Shown here piece by piece: positions 11,814 through 25,075 of a stretch of DNA of 40,244 nucleotides. This DNA comes from Bifidobacteriaceae bacterium (GTDB lineage Bacteria; Actinomycetota; Actinomycetes; Actinomycetales; Bifidobacteriaceae): contig JAQXZM010000034.1 in NCBI GenBank assembly GCA_029227215.1, positions 1 to 40,244 of the forward strand, in the 5' to 3' direction. Position 1 is the first letter of the stretch. Every line of letters starts with the position of its first letter. The translations under genes and the position numbers were made by a program. Under the pieces are notes generated by a model, which was not told where the DNA came from, did no database searches, and saw nothing but the letters and a program-made list of their open reading frames with translations.

Positions 11814-13718
11814 ATGGGACGCGCAGTTGGCATTGATTTGGGAACCACCAATTCCTGCATCGCAACCCTGGAAGGCGGTCAGCCGACCGTCATCGTGAAC
11901 GCCGAGGGCGCTCGCACCACGCCGTCCGTGGTGGCATTCAGCAAGTCCGGCGAGATTCTCGTCGGCGAAGTGGCAAAGCGCCAGGCCGTGACGAACGTTG
12001 ACCGCACGATCAGCTCCGTCAAGCGCCACATGGGCACCGACTGGACCGTCGACATCGACGGCAAGAAGTGGACCCCGCAGGAGATCTCCGCACAGATCCT
12101 CATGAAGCTCAAGCGCGACGCCGAGGCATACCTGGGCGAGCCGGTCACGGATGCCGTCATCACATGCCCGGCGTACTTCAACGATGCTCAGCGCCAGGCC
12201 ACGAAGGACGCTGGCACGATCGCCGGCCTCAACGTGCTGCGTATCATCAATGAGCCGACCGCCGCGGCGCTTGCCTACGGCCTGGAGAAGGGCAAGGAGG
12301 ATGAGCGCATCCTGGTCTTCGACCTTGGCGGCGGCACCTTCGATGTCTCCCTGCTGGAGATCGGCAAGGACGACGACGGCTTCTCCACCATTCAGGTGCA
12401 GGCGACGAACGGCGATAACCACCTCGGTGGCGACGATTGGGATCAGAAGATCATCGATTGGCTCGTCAGCGAAGTCAAGAACAAGTACGGTGTGGACCTG
12501 AGCAAGGACAAGATCGCCTTGCAGCGCCTCAAGGAGGCCGCTGAGCAGGCGAAGAAGGAGCTGAGCTCCTCCACGTCCACCAACATCTCGATGCAGTACT
12601 TGGCGATGACCCCTGACGGCACGCCTGTGCACCTCGACGAGACGCTGACCCGTGCGCACTTCGAAGAGATGACGTCCGACCTGCTCAACCGCTGCCGCAC
12701 GCCGTTCAACAACGTGCTGAGCGACGCGAACGTGTCGGTCTCCGACATCGACCACGTGGTGCTCGTCGGCGGCTCCACCCGTATGCCTGCCGTGCAGGAG
12801 CTCGTCAAGGAGCTCACCGGTGGCAAGGAAGCCAACAAGTCCGTGAACCCGGATGAGGTCGTGGCTGTCGGCGCCGCCGTGCAGTCCGGCGTCATCAAGG
12901 GCGACCGCAAGGACGTGCTGCTCATCGACGTGACCCCGCTGAGCCTGGGCATCGAGACCAAGGGCGGCATCATGACCAAGCTCATCGATCGCAACACCGC
13001 CATCCCGACCAAGCGTTCCGAGATCTTCTCGACTGCGGAAGACAACCAGCCGTCCGTGCTCATCCAGGTCTACCAGGGCGAGCGTGAGTTCGCGCGCGAC
13101 AACAAGCCGCTGGGTACCTTCGAGCTGAGCGGCATCGCGCCGGCTCCGCGTGGCGTGCCGCAGATCGAAGTCACGTTCGACATCGACGCCAACGGCATCG
13201 TGCACGTCTCCGCGAAGGACAAGGGCACTGGCAAGGAGCAGTCCATCACGATCACCGGTGGCTCCGGCCTGAGCAAGGACGAGATCAACCGCATGGTCGA
13301 TGAGGCCAAGGCTCACGACGCCGAGGACAAGAAGCGCCGTGAGGACGCCGACACCCGCAACCAGGCCGAGGGCTTCGCATACCAGACCGAGAAGGTGCTC
13401 AACGACAACAAGTCCAAGCTCTCCGATGACGTGGTCAAGGACGTGACCGCCAAGATCGACGCCCTGAAGACCGCTCTCAAGGGTGACGACATCGACGCCA
13501 TCAAGAAGGCACAGGACGAGCTGATGAAGTCCGCCCAGAAGATCGGCGAGGCCCTGTATGCGCAGGGTGGCGCCAATGGCGCTGCCGGTGCCGCGGGCGC
13601 GGCTGGCGCAGCAGGCGCCGCTGGTGCCGCAGGTGCTGCTGGCAACGCCAGCTCCTCCGATGATGACGTGGTGGACGCCGAGGTGGTGGACGACGACAAC
13701 AAGAAGGACGGCGAGTGA
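11814..13718 (+). CDS. dnaK: Molecular chaperone DnaK (Hsp70)
   Basis: [54 protein letters not shown]; (GAA)n C-terminal linker. Confidence 0.99.
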
Positions 13719-14554
13719 TGCCGGACTTCAACAAGGATGACTACCTGGCGGGGATGGGCGACGCCGACAAGCTCGCCCAGAACCCGCCGGCAGGCGGTGC
13801 TGCTGGTGCTGCTGGTGCCGGTGCGGTGGCTGATGATGCGGCGAAGGCCGCGGATGCCAAGCCTGCCGATGGTGCCACGGCCAATGGCGCTGCACAAGCC
13901 GCTGGCGCTGGCAAGGCAGATGCGAAGGCCGGTGCCGGTGGCAAAGCCGACGCTCAGCCGGATGCTCAGGCCGATGCCAACGCGGAATCCAATGCCGACG
14001 GAAGCCTGACCCCGCTGGGGCAGGCGAAGAAGGAAGCCGCGGATTACCTCGAGGCCCTGCAGCGTGAGCGCGCGGAGTTCATCAACTACCGCAACCGCAT
14101 GTCGAAGGAACTCGACCGCAACCGCCAGCACGGCATCATCGACGTGCTCACCGCGTTGCTGCCGGCGCTTGACGACATCGACCGCATCCGCGAGCATGAT
14201 GGCATGGACGATTCGTTCAAGGCCGTCGCCGCCAAGATCGACAAGACGTTCGCCAAGTTCGGCGTCGAGAAGTTCGGTGAGAAGGGTGAGCCCTTCGATC
14301 CGACGAAGCATGAGGCCGTGCTGCACCGGCAGGACGCCTCCGCGAAGACGGAGACCGTGGATGCCGTGGTCGAGGCCGGGTACCGCATCGGCGACCGCGT
14401 GATCCGCGCGGCGCGCGTCGTGGTGGTCGCCCCTGCGGACGACGCGCCTGCGGGTGGCGCTTCTGGCAACGGTAGCGCTTCCGATGCGGCGGCAGGCGAT
14501 GGCGCTGCAAACACCGCGAATGGCGGCGCTGCGAACGGCGCAGCCAACAACTGA
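13718..14554 (+). CDS. grpE: Nucleotide exchange factor GrpE
   Basis: YLEALQRERAEFINYRNRMSKE...LLPALDDIDR...FDPTKHEAVL; ATG overlaps dnaK TGA (TGATG). Confidence 0.97.
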   Translation: MPDFNKDDYLAGMGDADKLAQNPPAGGAAGAAGAGAVADDAAKAADAKPADGATANGAAQAAGAGKADAKAGAGGKADAQPDAQADANAESNADGSLTPLGQAKKEAADYLEALQRERAEFINYRNRMSKELDRNRQHGIIDVLTALLPALDDIDRIREHDGMDDSFKAVAAKIDKTFAKFGVEKFGEKGEPFDPTKHEAVLHRQDASAKTETVDAVVEAGYRIGDRVIRAARVVVVAPADDAPAGGASGNGSASDAAAGDGAANTANGGAANGAANN

Positions 14555-14559
14555 TTCCA

Positions 14560-14592
14560 ACGGGCGGCAATCCCCAGCCGGGTTGCCGCCCG
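14560..14592 (+). other. Intra-operon hairpin between grpE and dnaJ
   Basis: CGGGCGGCAA...TTGCCGCCCG with no strong U-tract. Confidence 0.7.
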
Positions 14593-14720
14593 GCATCATA
14601 TCCATAACCAAACAAGGACTTTTCAAGGACTTATTCCAATCGATGCACCTATTGATGCACTTATCGATGCAATGCAGCCGCGAACCCGGCAATGCCATCA
14701 CATGAGAAGGAGGAGTGGAA

Positions 14721-15803
14721 ATGGCAGAGCAAGATTGGCTCACCAAGGACTTCTACGCGGTCCTCGGTGTCAGTAAGGATGCCAGCGACTCCGATATCAC
14801 CAAGGCATATCGGAAGCTGGCGCGCAAGTATCATCCAGACCTTAACAAGACCCCTGAGGCGGAAGAGAAGTTCAAGGATATCTCCGAGGCCTATGACGTG
14901 CTGAGTAACAAGGAGCAGCGCCAGAAGTACGACGCGATCCGCTCCCTCGGCGCAGGCGGCGCCCGCTTCTCGGGCGGCAGCGGCGCCGGCGGGTTCGACG
15001 CCGGGCAGTTCTCGGACCTCTTCGGCTCGATGTTCGGCGGCTCCGGCTTCGGCGGCGGCCGCTTCAGCACGAGCGGCAACGGCGGCACCCATACCTACAC
15101 CTACAGCACCGGGGCGGGCGGGCCGGACCTGTCCGACATCCTCGGCGGCATGTTCGGAGGCGGCGCCGGGGCGGGCGCTCGCGGCGGCTTCAGCGCGGCG
15201 CAAGAGACGCGCAAGGGCCATGACCGCAACGCGCACATCACCCTCACGTTCCGCCAAGCGGTGGAAGGCGCCACGGTGAGCCTCTCTGCAGGCGGCAGTT
15301 CGTTTAAGACGCGCATCCCCGCGGGTGTGCGCGATGGGCAGAAGATCCGCATCCCCGGCAAGGGCGAGCCCGGTGTGGGCGGCGGCGCGAACGGCGACCT
15401 CTACATTGCCGTCACCGTGAAGCCGGACCCGGCGGGCGTGTTCACCGCCGAGGGGCGCAACCTGCACATGCGCATGCCGGTCACCGCTGCCGAGGCGGTG
15501 CTGGGCGGCACTGTGGAGGCGCGCGACTTCAACGGCCACACGTTCAAGATCAAGGTGCCGCAGGGCTCTGGCAACGGCAGGAAGCTGCGCGTGCGCGGCC
15601 GCGGCATCGACGACGGGCGCGAGACCGGCGACCTTATCGTGGAACTGGACGTGCAGCTGCCCCAGGAGCTCAGCGCCGAGCAGCGCAAGGCGCTCAAGGC
15701 GTTCGACAAGGCGAGTGCGGCGTTCAACACCGACGTGGCGCGTCGCCGCGAGACCGGCGAAGGCTTCGGTGCCGGCTCCGGCGCTGAGGGCGGTGCCCAA
15801 TGA
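14721..15803 (+). CDS. dnaJ: J-domain chaperone DnaJ, lacking the Cys-rich zinc-finger domain
   Basis: [33 protein letters not shown] (HPD motif), G/F-rich region, DnaJ C-terminal domain; no CxxCxGxG motifs; RBS gaaggaggag. Confidence 0.95.
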
Positions 15804-16558
15804 CGTCGCGCGTGGATCGCCAGATCAAGAAGGCGTACCTCGTGGCGGCGGCGGCGCTCGTGGAGGGCCGCGTGTCGCTCGACCAGATGGACGAGGCGGG
15901 GCTTAACGTGGAGCGGCCGATCTTCACGGTCGGCCAGGTGGCGCAGGTGGCGGACATCCACCCGCAGACGCTGCGCCAGTACGACAAGCTCAACCTCATC
16001 GTGCCCCGCCGCACGCCGGGCGGCGCTCGCCGCTACTCGCTGCGCGACGTGGACCGACTGACGCAGGCGCAGCATCTGGCGCAGGATGAGTCGATCAACC
16101 TGGCGGGCATCGCGCGCATTCTGCAGTTGGATGAAGAGAACCGCCAGCTGCGCCGCCAGATCGAGCGCCTTAAGCGCGGGGCGGATTCGTTCTTCGCTGC
16201 CGCCGTGGACGGCGAGGTGGTGGAGATCCGCCGCTCCCGCCGCGGCCACTCGTGGCGCAGGCCCCTGTTCAAGCCGCTCGAGCTCACCTCCACTGTGGAG
16301 GACCTCGACGATTACGACGAGGACGAGGATGATGGCGATGGCGATGGAACGGTGACGTATCGCGTTGTTGGTGGTGATAGTGCTGGCAAGAGGAATGCCG
16401 GTACTGGAAGTGCTGGCAGCAGCGGTCGCGCCGGCAAAGGCCGCACCTCCGTCATCACCGCCCAGTTGAACGATGATGACGATTCCGACGACGTTGATGA
16501 CGACGATGATTCGGATGTCGATTCCGCCGCAGACATCGACTTCGACGACGAGGAATAG
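15800..16558 (+). CDS. hspR: HspR, MerR-family heat-shock repressor with acidic C-terminal tail
   Basis: [52 protein letters not shown] overlap with dnaJ; matches HAIR upstream of dnaK. Confidence 0.95.
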
Positions 16559-16674: not shown

Positions 16675-16716
16675 AAGGCTGCTGACATGACTCACCTCAT
16701 GCCAGCGGCCTTTTCT
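16675..16716 (+). terminator. Terminator of dnaK operon
   Basis: AAGGCTGCTGACATG-actcacct-CATGCCAGCGGCCTT then TT. Confidence 0.75.
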
Positions 16717-16799
16717 TGTGCCGCTTGTGCCGAAGTCCCGCTAACAGCCGCGCCGTCAGCTGCCTCTCATGTTGCAAAAATAGTTGACCAACCTCACAA

Positions 16800-16874
16800 T
16801 GTACAAAATTTCATACATCGGATGTACAAAATTTTGTACATCCGATGTACATTTTTTTGTACATTGAATGTACA
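16800..16874. promoter_or_regulatory. TGTACA array with 36-bp perfect palindrome (candidate multi-site operator)
   Basis: TGTACA at 16800, 16823, 16835, 16846, 16858, 16869 (spacings 23, 12, 11, 12, 11); palindrome TACATCGGATGTACAAAATTTTGTACATCCGATGTA at 16814-16849. Confidence 0.85.
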
Positions 16875-16904
16875 AAAATGAAATCCGCCCGTATCATGGA
16901 AGCC

Positions 16905-18233
16905 ATGAGTGACTATATCGACAGGCCGCTGGCGGATTCGCTGTTGCACGCCCGGCGTAAGACCGTGATTCTCGAGGGTGCGCGCGCCGTGGGCAAAACC
17001 ATGATGATGCGCAAGCGCCTCGTGCCCGCAGGCTTTCGATACGAGACGCTCGCTGATGAAAACACCTATGCCTTGGCGAAATCCGATTTGCAGGGCTGGC
17101 TGGGCGGTCTCACGCTCCCCGTCGTCATCGATGAGGCGCAGCGCATCGCGGAGCTTCCGCTTGCCATCAAAGAAATCGTCGACGCGCTTACCGCCACAGG
17201 ACCGCAAGTCGTGCTCACCGGCAGTGCCATCATCAGTCGCGATGGGCTCGACGGCAGCAATCCGCTGGCGCGCCGCGTGCAACGATTCACGATGAGCCCG
17301 CTCACGCAACGCGAGATGCATGGGGTGCCGCGCAGCCTGGTGGACGACCTGTGGGATGCCGAGCCCAACATGGATTTCAACCAAGCCATCACCCGCGCTG
17401 AGCTGTTCGACCTCATGGCGGCGGGCGGCTTCCCCGAATACAGCGCCGAGTACGCCGAGTACGAGGATTGGGAACGCGAACGCCTGGTGCTCGACGACAT
17501 CCGAACGGTGCTGGGCGACACGATTCTGCCCGGGGAGAAGCTCGACGCCGCAATCGCGCAAAACGTGCTCGGCAGACTGCTCTCCACACCGGGCGGGATT
17601 TTGAACTCCAGTGCGCTCGCGGACCAGCTTTCGCTCGACCGCCGTACGGTGGACCGCTATGTGGGCGTCTTCATGAGGCGATTCCTCGTCACGGCGCTGC
17701 CGAATCTGCGCACCGCGCCGAATCGGCAGACGTTCTCCCGTTCGAAGATTCACCCGGTCGACACCTCGCTGAGCATCCAGACGCTGCTTTCCAAAGGTCG
17801 TGACCCACGCAAGAACCCGGTGGACTTCGGCAACACGCTCGAATCGTTCGTGGTCAACCAGGTCGTGCCGTCGGTCCAATGGTCCAAGACCCATCCGGAT
17901 TGCTTCTACTGGCGCGAAACCGGATCGAACGCCAAGGAAGTGGACCTCGTGATGCGCAGCCGGGGCAAGCTCGTGGGCGTCGAGGTCAAGTCCTCGTCCA
18001 AGGTCGACAGGGAAGACTTCAAAGGCCTCGCGGAACTTTCCACTCATGAAGGCTTCTACCGTGGATTTCTCGTCTACACGGGAAGCCGCATCCTGCGCTG
18101 GCGCGACGACCTGTGGGCCCTCCCCGTCACCGCCCTGTGGCAGCCGGAGGCATTTGTCGAGAGCGGCGGTGGGTCCTCTGGCGAAGAACCCGATAGGGGA
18201 AAGGCCGTCGAAGAGGGATCCGGAGAGAACTGA
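16905..18233 (+). CDS. AAA ATPase with DUF4143 domain
   Basis: Walker A-like LEGARAVGKTMMM, Walker B LPVVIDEAQRI, TGSAIIS, C-terminal NAKEVDLVMRSRGKLVGVEVKSSSK (PD-(D/E)xK-like region of this family). Start among ATGs at 16878/16896/16905 uncertain. Confidence 0.88.
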   Translation: MSDYIDRPLADSLLHARRKTVILEGARAVGKTMMMRKRLVPAGFRYETLADENTYALAKSDLQGWLGGLTLPVVIDEAQRIAELPLAIKEIVDALTATGPQVVLTGSAIISRDGLDGSNPLARRVQRFTMSPLTQREMHGVPRSLVDDLWDAEPNMDFNQAITRAELFDLMAAGGFPEYSAEYAEYEDWERERLVLDDIRTVLGDTILPGEKLDAAIAQNVLGRLLSTPGGILNSSALADQLSLDRRTVDRYVGVFMRRFLVTALPNLRTAPNRQTFSRSKIHPVDTSLSIQTLLSKGRDPRKNPVDFGNTLESFVVNQVVPSVQWSKTHPDCFYWRETGSNAKEVDLVMRSRGKLVGVEVKSSSKVDREDFKGLAELSTHEGFYRGFLVYTGSRILRWRDDLWALPVTALWQPEAFVESGGGSSGEEPDRGKAVEEGSGEN

Positions 18234-20578: not shown

Positions 20579-23500
20579 ATGGAAGGGAATACTAGGCATC
20601 ACAGCCTGGCGAGGAAGGCCGTCGGCCTTCTTGCGTCTGTGGCGACGTTGCTCACTGGCGGCGTGATCGCCGCATCTGCAGCGTCCACTGCCTCCGCGAC
20701 CACCACGGTCAGCACTACCAGTTATGACAACACCCTGGGCAATGCCACGTTCGAAGCCGCCCGCAACCAGTACGGCCTCACGCGTGAGATGAAGGATGGC
20801 AACACCCTGCATGCGTGGATGTGGTCGTTCAACACCATCAAGAACAACATGAAGGCCATCGCCGAGGCCGGCTGGACGTCCATCCAGACCGAACCGATCC
20901 AGCTGTGCAAGCAGAACGCAGCGAACGGCAAGAAGTTCGCTGAGAACTGGTATTACGTGTACCAGCCCATCGACAACGATGAGATCGGCAACTTCGTGGT
21001 CGGCACGGAAGACGATTTCAAGGCGATGAACGAGGAGGCCCACAAGTACGGCATCCGCATCATCGTTGACGTCGTGGCCAACCACATGACGTCCGACTAC
21101 AGCGCCATCAAGGGTCGCTGGGTGAATTCGAGCCTCTACCGCGGTGGCGGCAAGAGCTACGAAATCAAGAATTGGTCCGATCGTTATGAAATCACCCACA
21201 AGGCCCTTCTCGGCCTGTGGGAGATTGATTCCAACAATCCGACCACCGGGCAGTACATGCAGGAGTTCCTCAAGAAGGCAGTCGCCGATGGCGCCGATGG
21301 CTTCCGTTTCGATGCTGCCAAGCACATCGAGCTTCCGGGCGAGTTCTCTTCTGATTCCAACGGCTCCCCGTACTGGAATTACATTCTTGACAATGGCGCG
21401 CAGTACCAGTATGGCGAAGTGCTGCAAGACAATGTCTCCCGTGATGCGGATTACGCGAACCTGTTCAATAGCCATTCCAGCAACGGCGGCGGCGTGACCG
21501 CTTCCGGTTACGGCTACACTGTGCGTACCGCCATCACGAGCGGCACAATGCGTGCCTCTGATTTGTCTAGCTATGCTGACGCAGCTTCTCCGGACAACAC
21601 CGTGCTGTGGGTCGAGTCCCACGACAATTACGCGAACTCCGACAAGCTGTCCGTGAAGATCACCGATGACCAGCTCAAGCTTGGCTGGGCGATTGTGGGC
21701 TCCCGTCAGGAAGGCATGGCGCTGTTCTTCGATCGTCCTGCAGGCTCCGGCGGCAACCACGATCAGTTCACTGAGCAGACGCAGCTGGGCGATGCCGGCT
21801 CCGACCTGTGGAAGGACAAGGCGATCACCGCCATCAATCACTTCCGCAACCAGATGGACGGCAACGTCGAGTACCTGCACAATGCAGGTGCCAGCGGCGA
21901 CAATTCCAAGTGCCTGCTCGTCGAACGCTACAACACCGACAACAGCTCGGCTGATGATGGTGTGACCGTTGCCAACTCTCAGGGCGATACCTCTCTCGTG
22001 GGCACGTCCGTCAAGCTTGATGACGGTACGTACCCGGATCAGGCGAATTCCGGCAATTCCATCACCGTCAAGGGCGGCAAGATCACCGCCGGCACCGCCA
22101 AGAGCGGCGTGAGCGTGTTCTTCAACCCCGGCAGCGCCAACGTGCACGGTTCCGTGAGCGCATCCCCGACGGATTCCTCCTTCAAGACCGACACCTACAC
22201 CGTGTCGCTCCACGCTTCCCAGGCGACGAACCTGAAGTACTCGACCTCCGAGGGCGCCTCCGGTTCCTTCGTTGACGGCGACAAGATCATCATCGGCGGC
22301 TCCACCGATGCCGGCAACACCATCACGCTGACGGTGACCGGTACCGATGCCTCTGACGGTGACAACAAGGGCAAGGCTCTGAAGAGCGTCTACACCTACA
22401 CGAAGGTGGAGGCCGGCGCCATGACGCTGGCATCCCAGTATCAGACGAACCCCACCAAGGGCGCCAAGAAGACCATCACCATTGATGGCGATATCTCGGA
22501 CTGGGATAGCACGATGAAGATCGCCCAGGGTGCCGCGAATGATGATCCGCGTGTCTATCGTGAAAACTCCATGTGGGAGGTTCCTATCGATCTGTATGCG
22601 CTGTATGGTGCATGGGACGACAACAACCTGTACCTCATGTGGGAATACACGAACGTGCAGGATGCTGTCGATCCTGGCGACGACTACCCGCTGAGCCAGG
22701 GTGTGCTGTACAAGAGCCAGAATCTTGCGCAGTGGATTGCCGTCAACACAGGAGACTCCTCGTCCAAGATCGGCAATGGCGCTGGCCTGCAGACCGGCGG
22801 CACCATTTGGGACAACGGCCTGACGTTCACTGAGCCGCTCAATCGTCTCATCGAAATGTCCACGAACGGATCCAATGGTCCGTGGGTGTACGGTGGTGAC
22901 TCAACCGGTCTCGACTCCAACGCCATGTACGGTCCCGGTGTCAATGCCACTACGAACACCCAGAAGTCCGGCATCACCATGAAGTACGGCCTGGGCATCA
23001 AGGAAAACAAGGTCATCGGCATCGACGGCGGCTGGGGCCCCACCGGCAACCCCGCCCGCAAGGTGGGCGACGTGTCGAGCGACAGTTCCAACTGGGTTGA
23101 TTTCAACACCAAGGGCCACAACTCCTCCACGATGGACTTCCATTACGAGATGGCAATCCCGTTGAGCGAGCTTGGCATGAGCTCCGGCGATATCGACAAG
23201 AACGGCGTCTCCGTGATGGTCCTCGGCACGATGGGCCTGTCCGCCATGGACTCGCTGCCTTATGACACCGCCATGAACGACAATGCCGATCAGCCCGACA
23301 CCAAGTCCAAGGCTCTCAATTCCTATGAGAAGTCCGACAAGGACGAGATGAGCGCCAAGTTCGCGTGCATCGGCAGCTGCCCCAACGAGGTGATCGTGGC
23401 CCCTGAGTCCGTGGCAATCTCTGGCACGGATGTCTCCAACGGCACCGTGACCCGCGACATCTCGAGCGGCAACACCACGACTCAGCTCAAGGCTAAGGTC

Positions 23501-25075
23501 TCTCCGAGCGGCGCAAGCCAAAGCGTGACCTGGTCCTCGTCCAACACATCCGTGGCGACGGTGGATTCCAAGGGCAAAGTGACCATGCTCAAGGCTGGCA
23601 CCGCAACCATCACCGCGAAGACCTCAAACGGCAAGACCGCGACAGTCAAGGTGAAGGTGACCGGTTCCATCACGGCAGTGACGGGCATCAGCCTCAACCA
23701 GAAGTCACTGAGCCTGGACAAGGGTGCCACCTCGCAGCTGACCGCTACGATTACGCCGAGCAACGCAACCGACAAGACGGTGACGTGGAAGAGCTCGGAT
23801 GACTCCGTGGCATCCGTGGATGCAAACGGTCTCGTGACCGCCAAGAAGGCTGGCACCGCGACCATTACGGCGACATCCTCGAACGGCAAGACTGCCACCG
23901 CTACGGTGACTGTGACCGCTCCGGTTTCGTCGAATCGTATTTATGTGTCGGCTCCGGGTTGGTCGTCGGTGTATGCGTATGTGTATTCGGGCGATGGTTC
24001 GAGTGCTGTGAGCAATGCGGCGTGGCCTGGCGTGGCGTTGTCGAAGGTCTCCGGGTCGGATGCGTGCGGCCAGTCGGGTTATTACTATGACGTTCCCGAT
24101 GGCCTGGCGTCCGGTTCGAGGGTGATCTTCAGCGACAATGGCAGCCGGTCGAACCGTTATCCGGCGGACAAGGCGCCGGGCATGGATTATGCCGGCGGCA
24201 CGGTGGGCTGGAAGGTGGGCGACGCGTCGCTCTCCGACGTGACGTGCAAGCCCGTGCCGGTGCCGGTGTCTTCGGTGTCTGTGTCTCCGTCGTCTGTGTC
24301 GTTGCAGGTGGGTGGTTCGCGGCAGTTGTCTGCGACGGTGAGCCCGAGCAACGCCACGGACAGGACCGTGACCTGGAGCAGTTCGGATGCCTCGGTCGCG
24401 TCGGTGTCCTCGTCTGGCGTGGTGAAGGCTTTGAAGGCGGGTTCGGCGACCGTCACGGCGAAGGCGGGCGGCAGGAGCGCGTCGGTGAGCGTGGTGGTGA
24501 AGGCCGCCGGCTCGGTGACGGTGCCGGTGTCGATGGTGTCCGTCACGGGTTCGAAGACCGTGTCGGTCGGTTCCACGACGAAGCTTTCGGCGACCGTCTC
24601 CCCGAGCAACGCGACGAACAGGACGGTCACGTGGGGCTCCACGGACCCGAAGGTCGCGACGGTCTCGTCGGACGGCACGGTGACGGGTGTGAAGGCCGGC
24701 ACCGTGAGGATTGTGGCGACTGCGGGGAACGTGTCGGCTGCGTTCGATGTGTCGGTGAAGGCTGCTGAGTCGATGACGGTGTGGTACCGTCCGGATTCGT
24801 CGTCGACGACGGGCGTGCGCCTGTGGTATCCGACGGCGTCGGGTTCCGCTTCGGTGGACATGGCGAGGGCGTGCGACGGGTATTACTCGGCGAAGGTGCC
24901 CGTGACCGGTTCGAGCATGAAGCTGGTGGCGCAGCTGAACCCGTCGTCTGGCTCGTTCACCCGTGACGCGAAGGGCTCGACGCCCGGCTGGGTCGTGTCC
25001 TCGGGCTCGGCGGTGACGCTCGCGTACGGCAACGTGTACAACGGCGCCCACACCACAAGCTGCAAAACCAACTAA
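20579..25075 (+). CDS. Secreted multidomain GH13 alpha-amylase with CBM74-like region, four BIG2 repeats, CBM26-like and C-terminal carbohydrate-binding-like modules
   Basis: Signal peptide; GH13 motifs DVVANH, GFRFDAAKHIE, GEVLQD, VESHDN; DGDISDWDSTMKI...YLMWEYTN region; Ig-like repeats (VTWSSSNTSVATVDSKGKVTMLKAGTATITAKT etc.); NRIYVSAPGWSSVYAYVYSGDG starch-binding pattern. Confidence 0.93.
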   Translation: MEGNTRHHSLARKAVGLLASVATLLTGGVIAASAASTASATTTVSTTSYDNTLGNATFEAARNQYGLTREMKDGNTLHAWMWSFNTIKNNMKAIAEAGWTSIQTEPIQLCKQNAANGKKFAENWYYVYQPIDNDEIGNFVVGTEDDFKAMNEEAHKYGIRIIVDVVANHMTSDYSAIKGRWVNSSLYRGGGKSYEIKNWSDRYEITHKALLGLWEIDSNNPTTGQYMQEFLKKAVADGADGFRFDAAKHIELPGEFSSDSNGSPYWNYILDNGAQYQYGEVLQDNVSRDADYANLFNSHSSNGGGVTASGYGYTVRTAITSGTMRASDLSSYADAASPDNTVLWVESHDNYANSDKLSVKITDDQLKLGWAIVGSRQEGMALFFDRPAGSGGNHDQFTEQTQLGDAGSDLWKDKAITAINHFRNQMDGNVEYLHNAGASGDNSKCLLVERYNTDNSSADDGVTVANSQGDTSLVGTSVKLDDGTYPDQANSGNSITVKGGKITAGTAKSGVSVFFNPGSANVHGSVSASPTDSSFKTDTYTVSLHASQATNLKYSTSEGASGSFVDGDKIIIGGSTDAGNTITLTVTGTDASDGDNKGKALKSVYTYTKVEAGAMTLASQYQTNPTKGAKKTITIDGDISDWDSTMKIAQGAANDDPRVYRENSMWEVPIDLYALYGAWDDNNLYLMWEYTNVQDAVDPGDDYPLSQGVLYKSQNLAQWIAVNTGDSSSKIGNGAGLQTGGTIWDNGLTFTEPLNRLIEMSTNGSNGPWVYGGDSTGLDSNAMYGPGVNATTNTQKSGITMKYGLGIKENKVIGIDGGWGPTGNPARKVGDVSSDSSNWVDFNTKGHNSSTMDFHYEMAIPLSELGMSSGDIDKNGVSVMVLGTMGLSAMDSLPYDTAMNDNADQPDTKSKALNSYEKSDKDEMSAKFACIGSCPNEVIVAPESVAISGTDVSNGTVTRDISSGNTTTQLKAKVSPSGASQSVTWSSSNTSVATVDSKGKVTMLKAGTATITAKTSNGKTATVKVKVTGSITAVTGISLNQKSLSLDKGATSQLTATITPSNATDKTVTWKSSDDSVASVDANGLVTAKKAGTATITATSSNGKTATATVTVTAPVSSNRIYVSAPGWSSVYAYVYSGDGSSAVSNAAWPGVALSKVSGSDACGQSGYYYDVPDGLASGSRVIFSDNGSRSNRYPADKAPGMDYAGGTVGWKVGDASLSDVTCKPVPVPVSSVSVSPSSVSLQVGGSRQLSATVSPSNATDRTVTWSSSDASVASVSSSGVVKALKAGSATVTAKAGGRSASVSVVVKAAGSVTVPVSMVSVTGSKTVSVGSTTKLSATVSPSNATNRTVTWGSTDPKVATVSSDGTVTGVKAGTVRIVATAGNVSAAFDVSVKAAESMTVWYRPDSSSTTGVRLWYPTASGSASVDMARACDGYYSAKVPVTGSSMKLVAQLNPSSGSFTRDAKGSTPGWVVSSGSAVTLAYGNVYNGAHTTSCKTN

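Follow-up and report, generated by a model that had tools for sequence, protein, structure and literature searches.

The window, that is, the whole stretch of 40,244 nucleotides analysed here, carries a gene for a 442-residue ATPase that is preceded by an array of TGTACA hexamers, with a MerR-type (HspR-like) gene as upstream neighbour and a sugar transferase gene downstream. The start of the ATPase was set at the ATG at 16905 (MSDYIDRPL) by the M(S/T)xYIxRPL sequence conserved in the alignment of its relatives. DnaJ and MerR-type (HspR-like) ORFs lie directly upstream of the array, with dnaK-like and grpE-like ORFs before them (11814-16558), and further along the window an ORF of 1498 residues (20579-25075) shows alpha-amylase, CBM26 and several Big_2 domains.

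Pfam searches of the ATPase returned AAA_14 with 56.1 bits (cut-off 27) and DUF4143 with 71.7 bits (cut-off 28.1). Like the PDC-S01 candidate defence proteins of PADLOC, it matched the PDC-S01 profile, with 273 bits (E=8e-82) over residues 1-413, nearly its full length. PDC-S01 is described as ranking fourth in frequency among defences across prokaryotes, and most such candidates still await experimental validation (PMC12988326). The Walker A (GARAVGK), Walker B (IDEAQR) and PD-(D/E)XK-like motifs (ExD and ExK, E345/D347 and E360/K362) were intact and invariant across 17 aligned sequences. An AlphaFold model (mean pLDDT 75, 17 sequences) displayed an AAA+ core, a three-helix HTH at 215-259 and a C-terminal ExD/ExK domain; the internal HTH, LADQLSLDRRTVDRYVGVF, consists of helices 215-227, 235-241 and 246-259 in the model. 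RuvB and clamp loaders were the best PDB matches of this model in Foldseek, and the Can2 nucleases (low TM-score, high rmsd) and the archaeal Walker ATPase 2qen were also among the matches; because the TM-scores were low throughout, they support the domain types only. No match was returned by a PDB sequence search with the ATPase, no NCBIfam family by a search for the window protein, no relatives by a search of viral contigs and no orthologues by a search of three other genomes of the genus. A sister clade, about 50% identical to the ATPase, carries a fused C-terminal TIR domain; TIR-fused sisters with a further region and a degenerate TGTACA array were observed at L041-L047 (e.g. L041:1501-3912).

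Table 1. Window coordinates of the array, the predicted promoter and the ATPase gene.
Feature	Position	Strand	Remarks
Outermost TGTACA half site	16800..16805		exact match; right half only of a possible fourth unit
Operator unit 1 (predicted), CATACATCGGATGTACA	16812..16828		-93 from ATG; 12/14 fixed positions of TGTACATNNNATGTACA
Perfect 36-bp palindrome of units 1 and 2	16814..16849		not conserved as such in orthologues
Operator unit 2 (predicted), TGTACATCCGATGTACA	16835..16851		-70 from ATG; 14/14 fixed positions
Operator unit 3 (predicted), TGTACATTGAATGTACA	16858..16874		-47 from ATG; 14/14 fixed positions; 17 bp upstream of TATCAT
Predicted -10 box TATCAT	16892..16897	+	7 nt ahead of the ATG; predicted transcript leaderless
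ATPase, AAA_14, winged HTH and DUF4143, 442 aa, PDC-S01 candidate defence protein	16905..18233	+	Pfam, PADLOC, orthologue alignment, structure model

An earlier note on this DNA had described six TGTACA hexamers with spacings of 23, 12, 11, 12 and 11. Recomputed positions (starts at 16800, 16823, 16835, 16846, 16858 and 16869) agreed with this description in full, the CATACA said to fill the 23-bp gap between the first two hexamers was present at 16812-16817, and the perfect 36-bp palindrome, TACATCGGATGTACAAAATTTTGTACATCCGATGTA, was located as listed in Table 1. The note had placed the array just upstream of the ATPase start or overlapping it; the upstream position holds and the overlap does not, since the last unit ends 31 bp before the ATG at 16905. 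When the region 16701-16950 was subjected to 5000 dinucleotide shuffles, any array-length stretch contained two TGTACA at most. The natural unit of the array is a 17-bp palindrome, TGTACATNNNATGTACA (TGTACAT-N3-ATGTACA), repeated with a period of 23 bp to give three units and one outer half site. The 36-bp palindrome arises from two adjacent self-palindromic units when the spacer between them is AAAATTTT.

Genome-wide checks were carried out as pattern searches. The pattern TGTACA-N5/6-TGTACA-N5/6-TGTACA was found nowhere else in the 2.0-Mb genome, and the exact TACAT-N3-ATGTA occurred three times, always inside the array. Equal arrays scattered at other sites, an observation that the earlier note had listed against its own reading, were thus absent from these searches, and a global TGTACA regulon was rejected since they returned no further array.

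The array is conserved in orthologues. Bifidobacterium and Gardnerella orthologues, 60-76% identical and located at different genomic sites with different neighbours, carry the unit with its 23-bp period directly upstream, and arrays were present, in some cases in degenerate form, wherever upstream DNA was available. Lack of conservation among DUF4143 orthologues had been fixed beforehand as the main ground for abandoning the operator, and the opposite was found. A period of 23 was the best one in 24 of the 27 genes of the ATPase clade and its sisters. A two-unit pattern with at most 2 mismatches matched 25 of 189 family genomes, against 0 for the reversed control pattern, and in G000 it matched the array before the ATPase only.

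The repeated palindromic sites overlap the predicted core promoter of the ATPase gene itself, an arrangement kept in orthologues. A -10-like hexamer was found 6-9 nt before the ATG in 24 of 24 relatives (the clade and its TIR-fused sisters); the search covered only a short region preceding the ATG and so partly determined where the hexamer was placed, but it had no such influence on how well the hexamer matched (5 or 6 of 6 under the applied weighting, 7 for three genes). A Shine-Dalgarno match was absent in 23 of these relatives, the exception being the window gene with a weak GGAA, and leaderless transcripts are indicated because the hexamer lies so close to the ATG and the Shine-Dalgarno sequence is missing in the 23. 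Counted from the ATG, the units take positions of about -25/-48/-71/-93, a 23-bp grid in register with the -10 box. One orthologue group has its last unit at about -25, with the -10 box inside it; in a second group, which includes the window, the last unit lies at about -47 and supplies the predicted -35 box, the last TGTACA of unit 3 (16869-16874) occupying the place expected for that box on the same grid as in the orthologues.

These data bear on the cruciform that the earlier note had considered as a means of controlling the gene. The perfection of the 36-bp palindrome speaks for a cruciform or RNA structure, but its symmetry across the spacer is not conserved: spacers are asymmetric in most orthologues and it is the direct 23-bp periodicity that is kept. 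Moreover, an array upstream of a leaderless transcript, as predicted here, would not be transcribed, and no Rfam family reached the gathering score, with sub-threshold matches only. Control of the gene by such a structure is therefore extremely improbable.

Tandem arrays were also detected across the PDC-S01 family. In distant Bifidobacteriaceae paralogues (21-31% identity) the arrays occupy the same position, with entirely unrelated sequences. Significant direct repeats (p<=0.02) occurred in 34 of 39 such paralogues against 6 of 91 controls (Fisher 7e-20), a p-value that, like those below, overstates the independent events because homologues from one genus are not independent. The best period was 22 or 23 in 36/39 of these paralogues and in 15/21 plasmid homologues, as compared with 16/113 control genes; among the 36 Bifidobacteriaceae paralogues scoring >=10 it was 23 in 31 and 22 in 5. 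The 21 plasmid homologues came mostly from Alphaproteobacteria, with further ones from Gammaproteobacteria (Marinobacter), Thermus, Mycobacterium and Runella. Among other Actinomycetota members only 22 of 63 had a best period of 22 or 23 (Fisher 0.002). A scan allowing loops of up to 14 bp detected a strong inverted repeat no more than 75 bp from the start in 20 of these 63 members, as compared with 5 of 91 controls (Fisher 3e-5). Some family members had no detectable array or inverted repeat. Control gene sets excluded P-loop proteins, and start codons were rule-based for the paralogues and for many of the control genes. All five distant homologues that were checked matched PDC-S01 profiles. 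Several actinobacterial DUF4143 ATPases (L141, L143, L144, L145, L149, L150, L155) share a promoter inverted repeat like TTATGCATTTATAATGCATAA, which in L141 sits between a TTGACA -35 and a CATAAT -10.

As to the protein that reads these sites, paralogues within one genome mostly carry unrelated units, which makes a single shared regulator unlikely. The HTH is conserved within the clade sharing the TGTACA unit and differs in clades with other units. Motif similarity followed protein similarity (Mantel r=0.57, p=0.001), a correlation weakened as evidence by the fact that linked inheritance alone would produce it. The array is thus probably a paralogue-specific dedicated operator through which the ATPase, binding by its winged helix, represses its own promoter. 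Self-binding is the simplest account of the data; the binder, the repression and the defence role are all inferred, whereas the array, its conservation and place on the predicted promoter, the period common to the family, the paralogue-specific sequences and the protein domains were observed. The multi-site operator proposed in the earlier note, probably an autoregulatory one, finds good support in its conservation, in its register with the promoter and in the occurrence of arrays with a 22-23 bp period across the family, with the ATPase as its putative binder.

The same array might be a real operator for a separate host transcription factor, a reading to which the indirect assignment of the binder and the solo arrays remaining after gene loss leave some room. 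However, the location and the neighbours of the ATPase gene vary, a genome uses the site roughly once, and the units of paralogues in one genome are mostly unrelated. A dedicated factor would have to exist for every single clade, although all clades have the 22-23 bp period in common. We consider a host factor unlikely.

According to the autoregulatory model, the three 17-bp palindromes, repeated every 23 bp, would cover the -35 box and the upstream DNA of a leaderless promoter, and in several orthologues the last site would cover the -10 box itself. The ATPase or its oligomer would bind its own array by means of the winged HTH located between the AAA+ and DUF4143 (PD-(D/E)XK-like) domains and, once bound, would repress its own transcription, so that a potentially harmful defence effector might be kept scarce and be released by infection or some other signal. 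The site sequence would be specific to each paralogue, with a constant 22-23 bp period set by the geometry of the protein and possibly reflecting that of neighbouring protomers. The earlier note had suggested an operator on one helix face, which would require spacings of whole helical turns (about 10.5 or 21 bp); with half sites 11.5 bp and units 23 bp apart (2.19 turns at 10.5 bp per turn), each unit is rotated by about 69 degrees from the last, and one-face phasing was therefore rejected. A helical arrangement of protomers would fit this value better than a same-face one. More generally, and tentatively, PDC-S01/DUF4143 ATPases could be self-regulating sensors whose HTH reads their own array or inverted repeat, the occupancy of which might couple the state of the AAA+ oligomer, and with it infection or foreign DNA, to expression.

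An ATPase bound to this DNA could also serve purposes beyond transcription, with the array acting as a platform (an assembly or storage site, a self-reference for the nuclease-like domain, or an iteron-like element) and any promoter effect being secondary. The iteron-like period of a tandem array beside an AAA+/PD-(D/E)XK-like gene is in keeping with this, as are the approximately 8 near-perfect 23-bp copies (TTATGCAAATCGTGGGTTAGACT) within 200 bp before the PDC-S01 gene of L099, which suggest rapid homogenisation of the array. Nevertheless, the units are in register with the -10 box and the start codon, and many relatives have one promoter-near inverted repeat and no array, which fits an operator better; a platform is, in our judgement, rather improbable.

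Repeats at the promoter of a candidate defence gene have parallels in known systems. The autoregulated operators of toxin-antitoxin systems and those of BrxR/CapW-type defence repressors contain repeats to which a product of the locus, or a partner of it, binds in its own promoter region. The binding role falls to a dedicated antitoxin or WYL-type regulator in these systems, whereas here the effector-like AAA+ protein itself has the HTH. Plasmid iterons are direct repeats in tandem, about 20-22 bp in size, and lie next to the gene of the Rep initiator that binds them, with autorepression. The present array resembles them in consisting of tandem direct repeats beside the gene of the presumed binder; it differs in that nothing points to a part in replication, neither the window nor its relatives lie on recognised replicons of the iteron type, and the ATPase is not a Rep protein. 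The closest documented precedent is RptR of an E. coli defence island, a 9-kDa repressor acting on three 9-bp TAGCTA direct repeats over its promoter, with autorepression and two or more sites needed for full repression (PMC12255303). Both systems have tandem short palindromes over the promoter of a defence locus (here a candidate one), with binding documented for RptR and proposed for the ATPase; unlike in that system, a separate repressor gene was not found here, the 17-bp unit recurs every 23 bp, and it is the ATPase itself that presumably binds. Identity with the RptR operator was rejected, since the site differs and the neighbours are a MerR-type gene and a sugar transferase gene, not rptR.

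A paralogue-specific operator suggests that the effector-like ATPase also acts as the repressor of its own gene, in contrast to defence loci under a separate regulator. A literature search on DUF4143/COG1373 ATPases and TGTACA in Bifidobacterium found no description of such an operator, and the available part of PMC12988326 contains no mention of promoter arrays of PDC-S01. Such an operator in front of many copies would supply binding and ATPase assays with a DNA ligand of defined sequence, and the array could serve as a reporter for what induces the PDC-S01 gene and as a signature separating intact regulated copies from decayed ones.

Approximately 9-10 solo arrays stand without an intact ATPase gene (around position 1501 in L063, L066, L068, L071, L075, L076, L078, L080, L081 and L085), and an array can therefore persist for some time without its presumed binder. 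Comparison of G119 with G115 showed that just the ATPase segment is missing in G119, where the array is kept, while in G047, as compared with G058, the ATPase segment is missing with the break inside the array. The G119 solo array (L075) adjoins a dnaK-like gene. Solo arrays look like remnants, although an independent role has room.

Solo arrays in about nine genomes, and differences at or in the array between these gene-bearing and gene-less relatives, would also be expected of a mobile-element footprint or recombination end that travels with the gene and has no regulatory role, and in Gardnerella loci two arrays flank a Fic-like gene. Against this, the 3' end of the gene as a rule showed no array, the array is locked to the predicted promoter and a 22-23 bp period persists even where the sequence changes, so that a mere footprint is very unlikely. 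In the Gardnerella loci (L130, L131) the Fic-family-like gene lies between two near-identical copies of the array, and its own upstream region contains 20-bp repeats, TTATTCCGATA.
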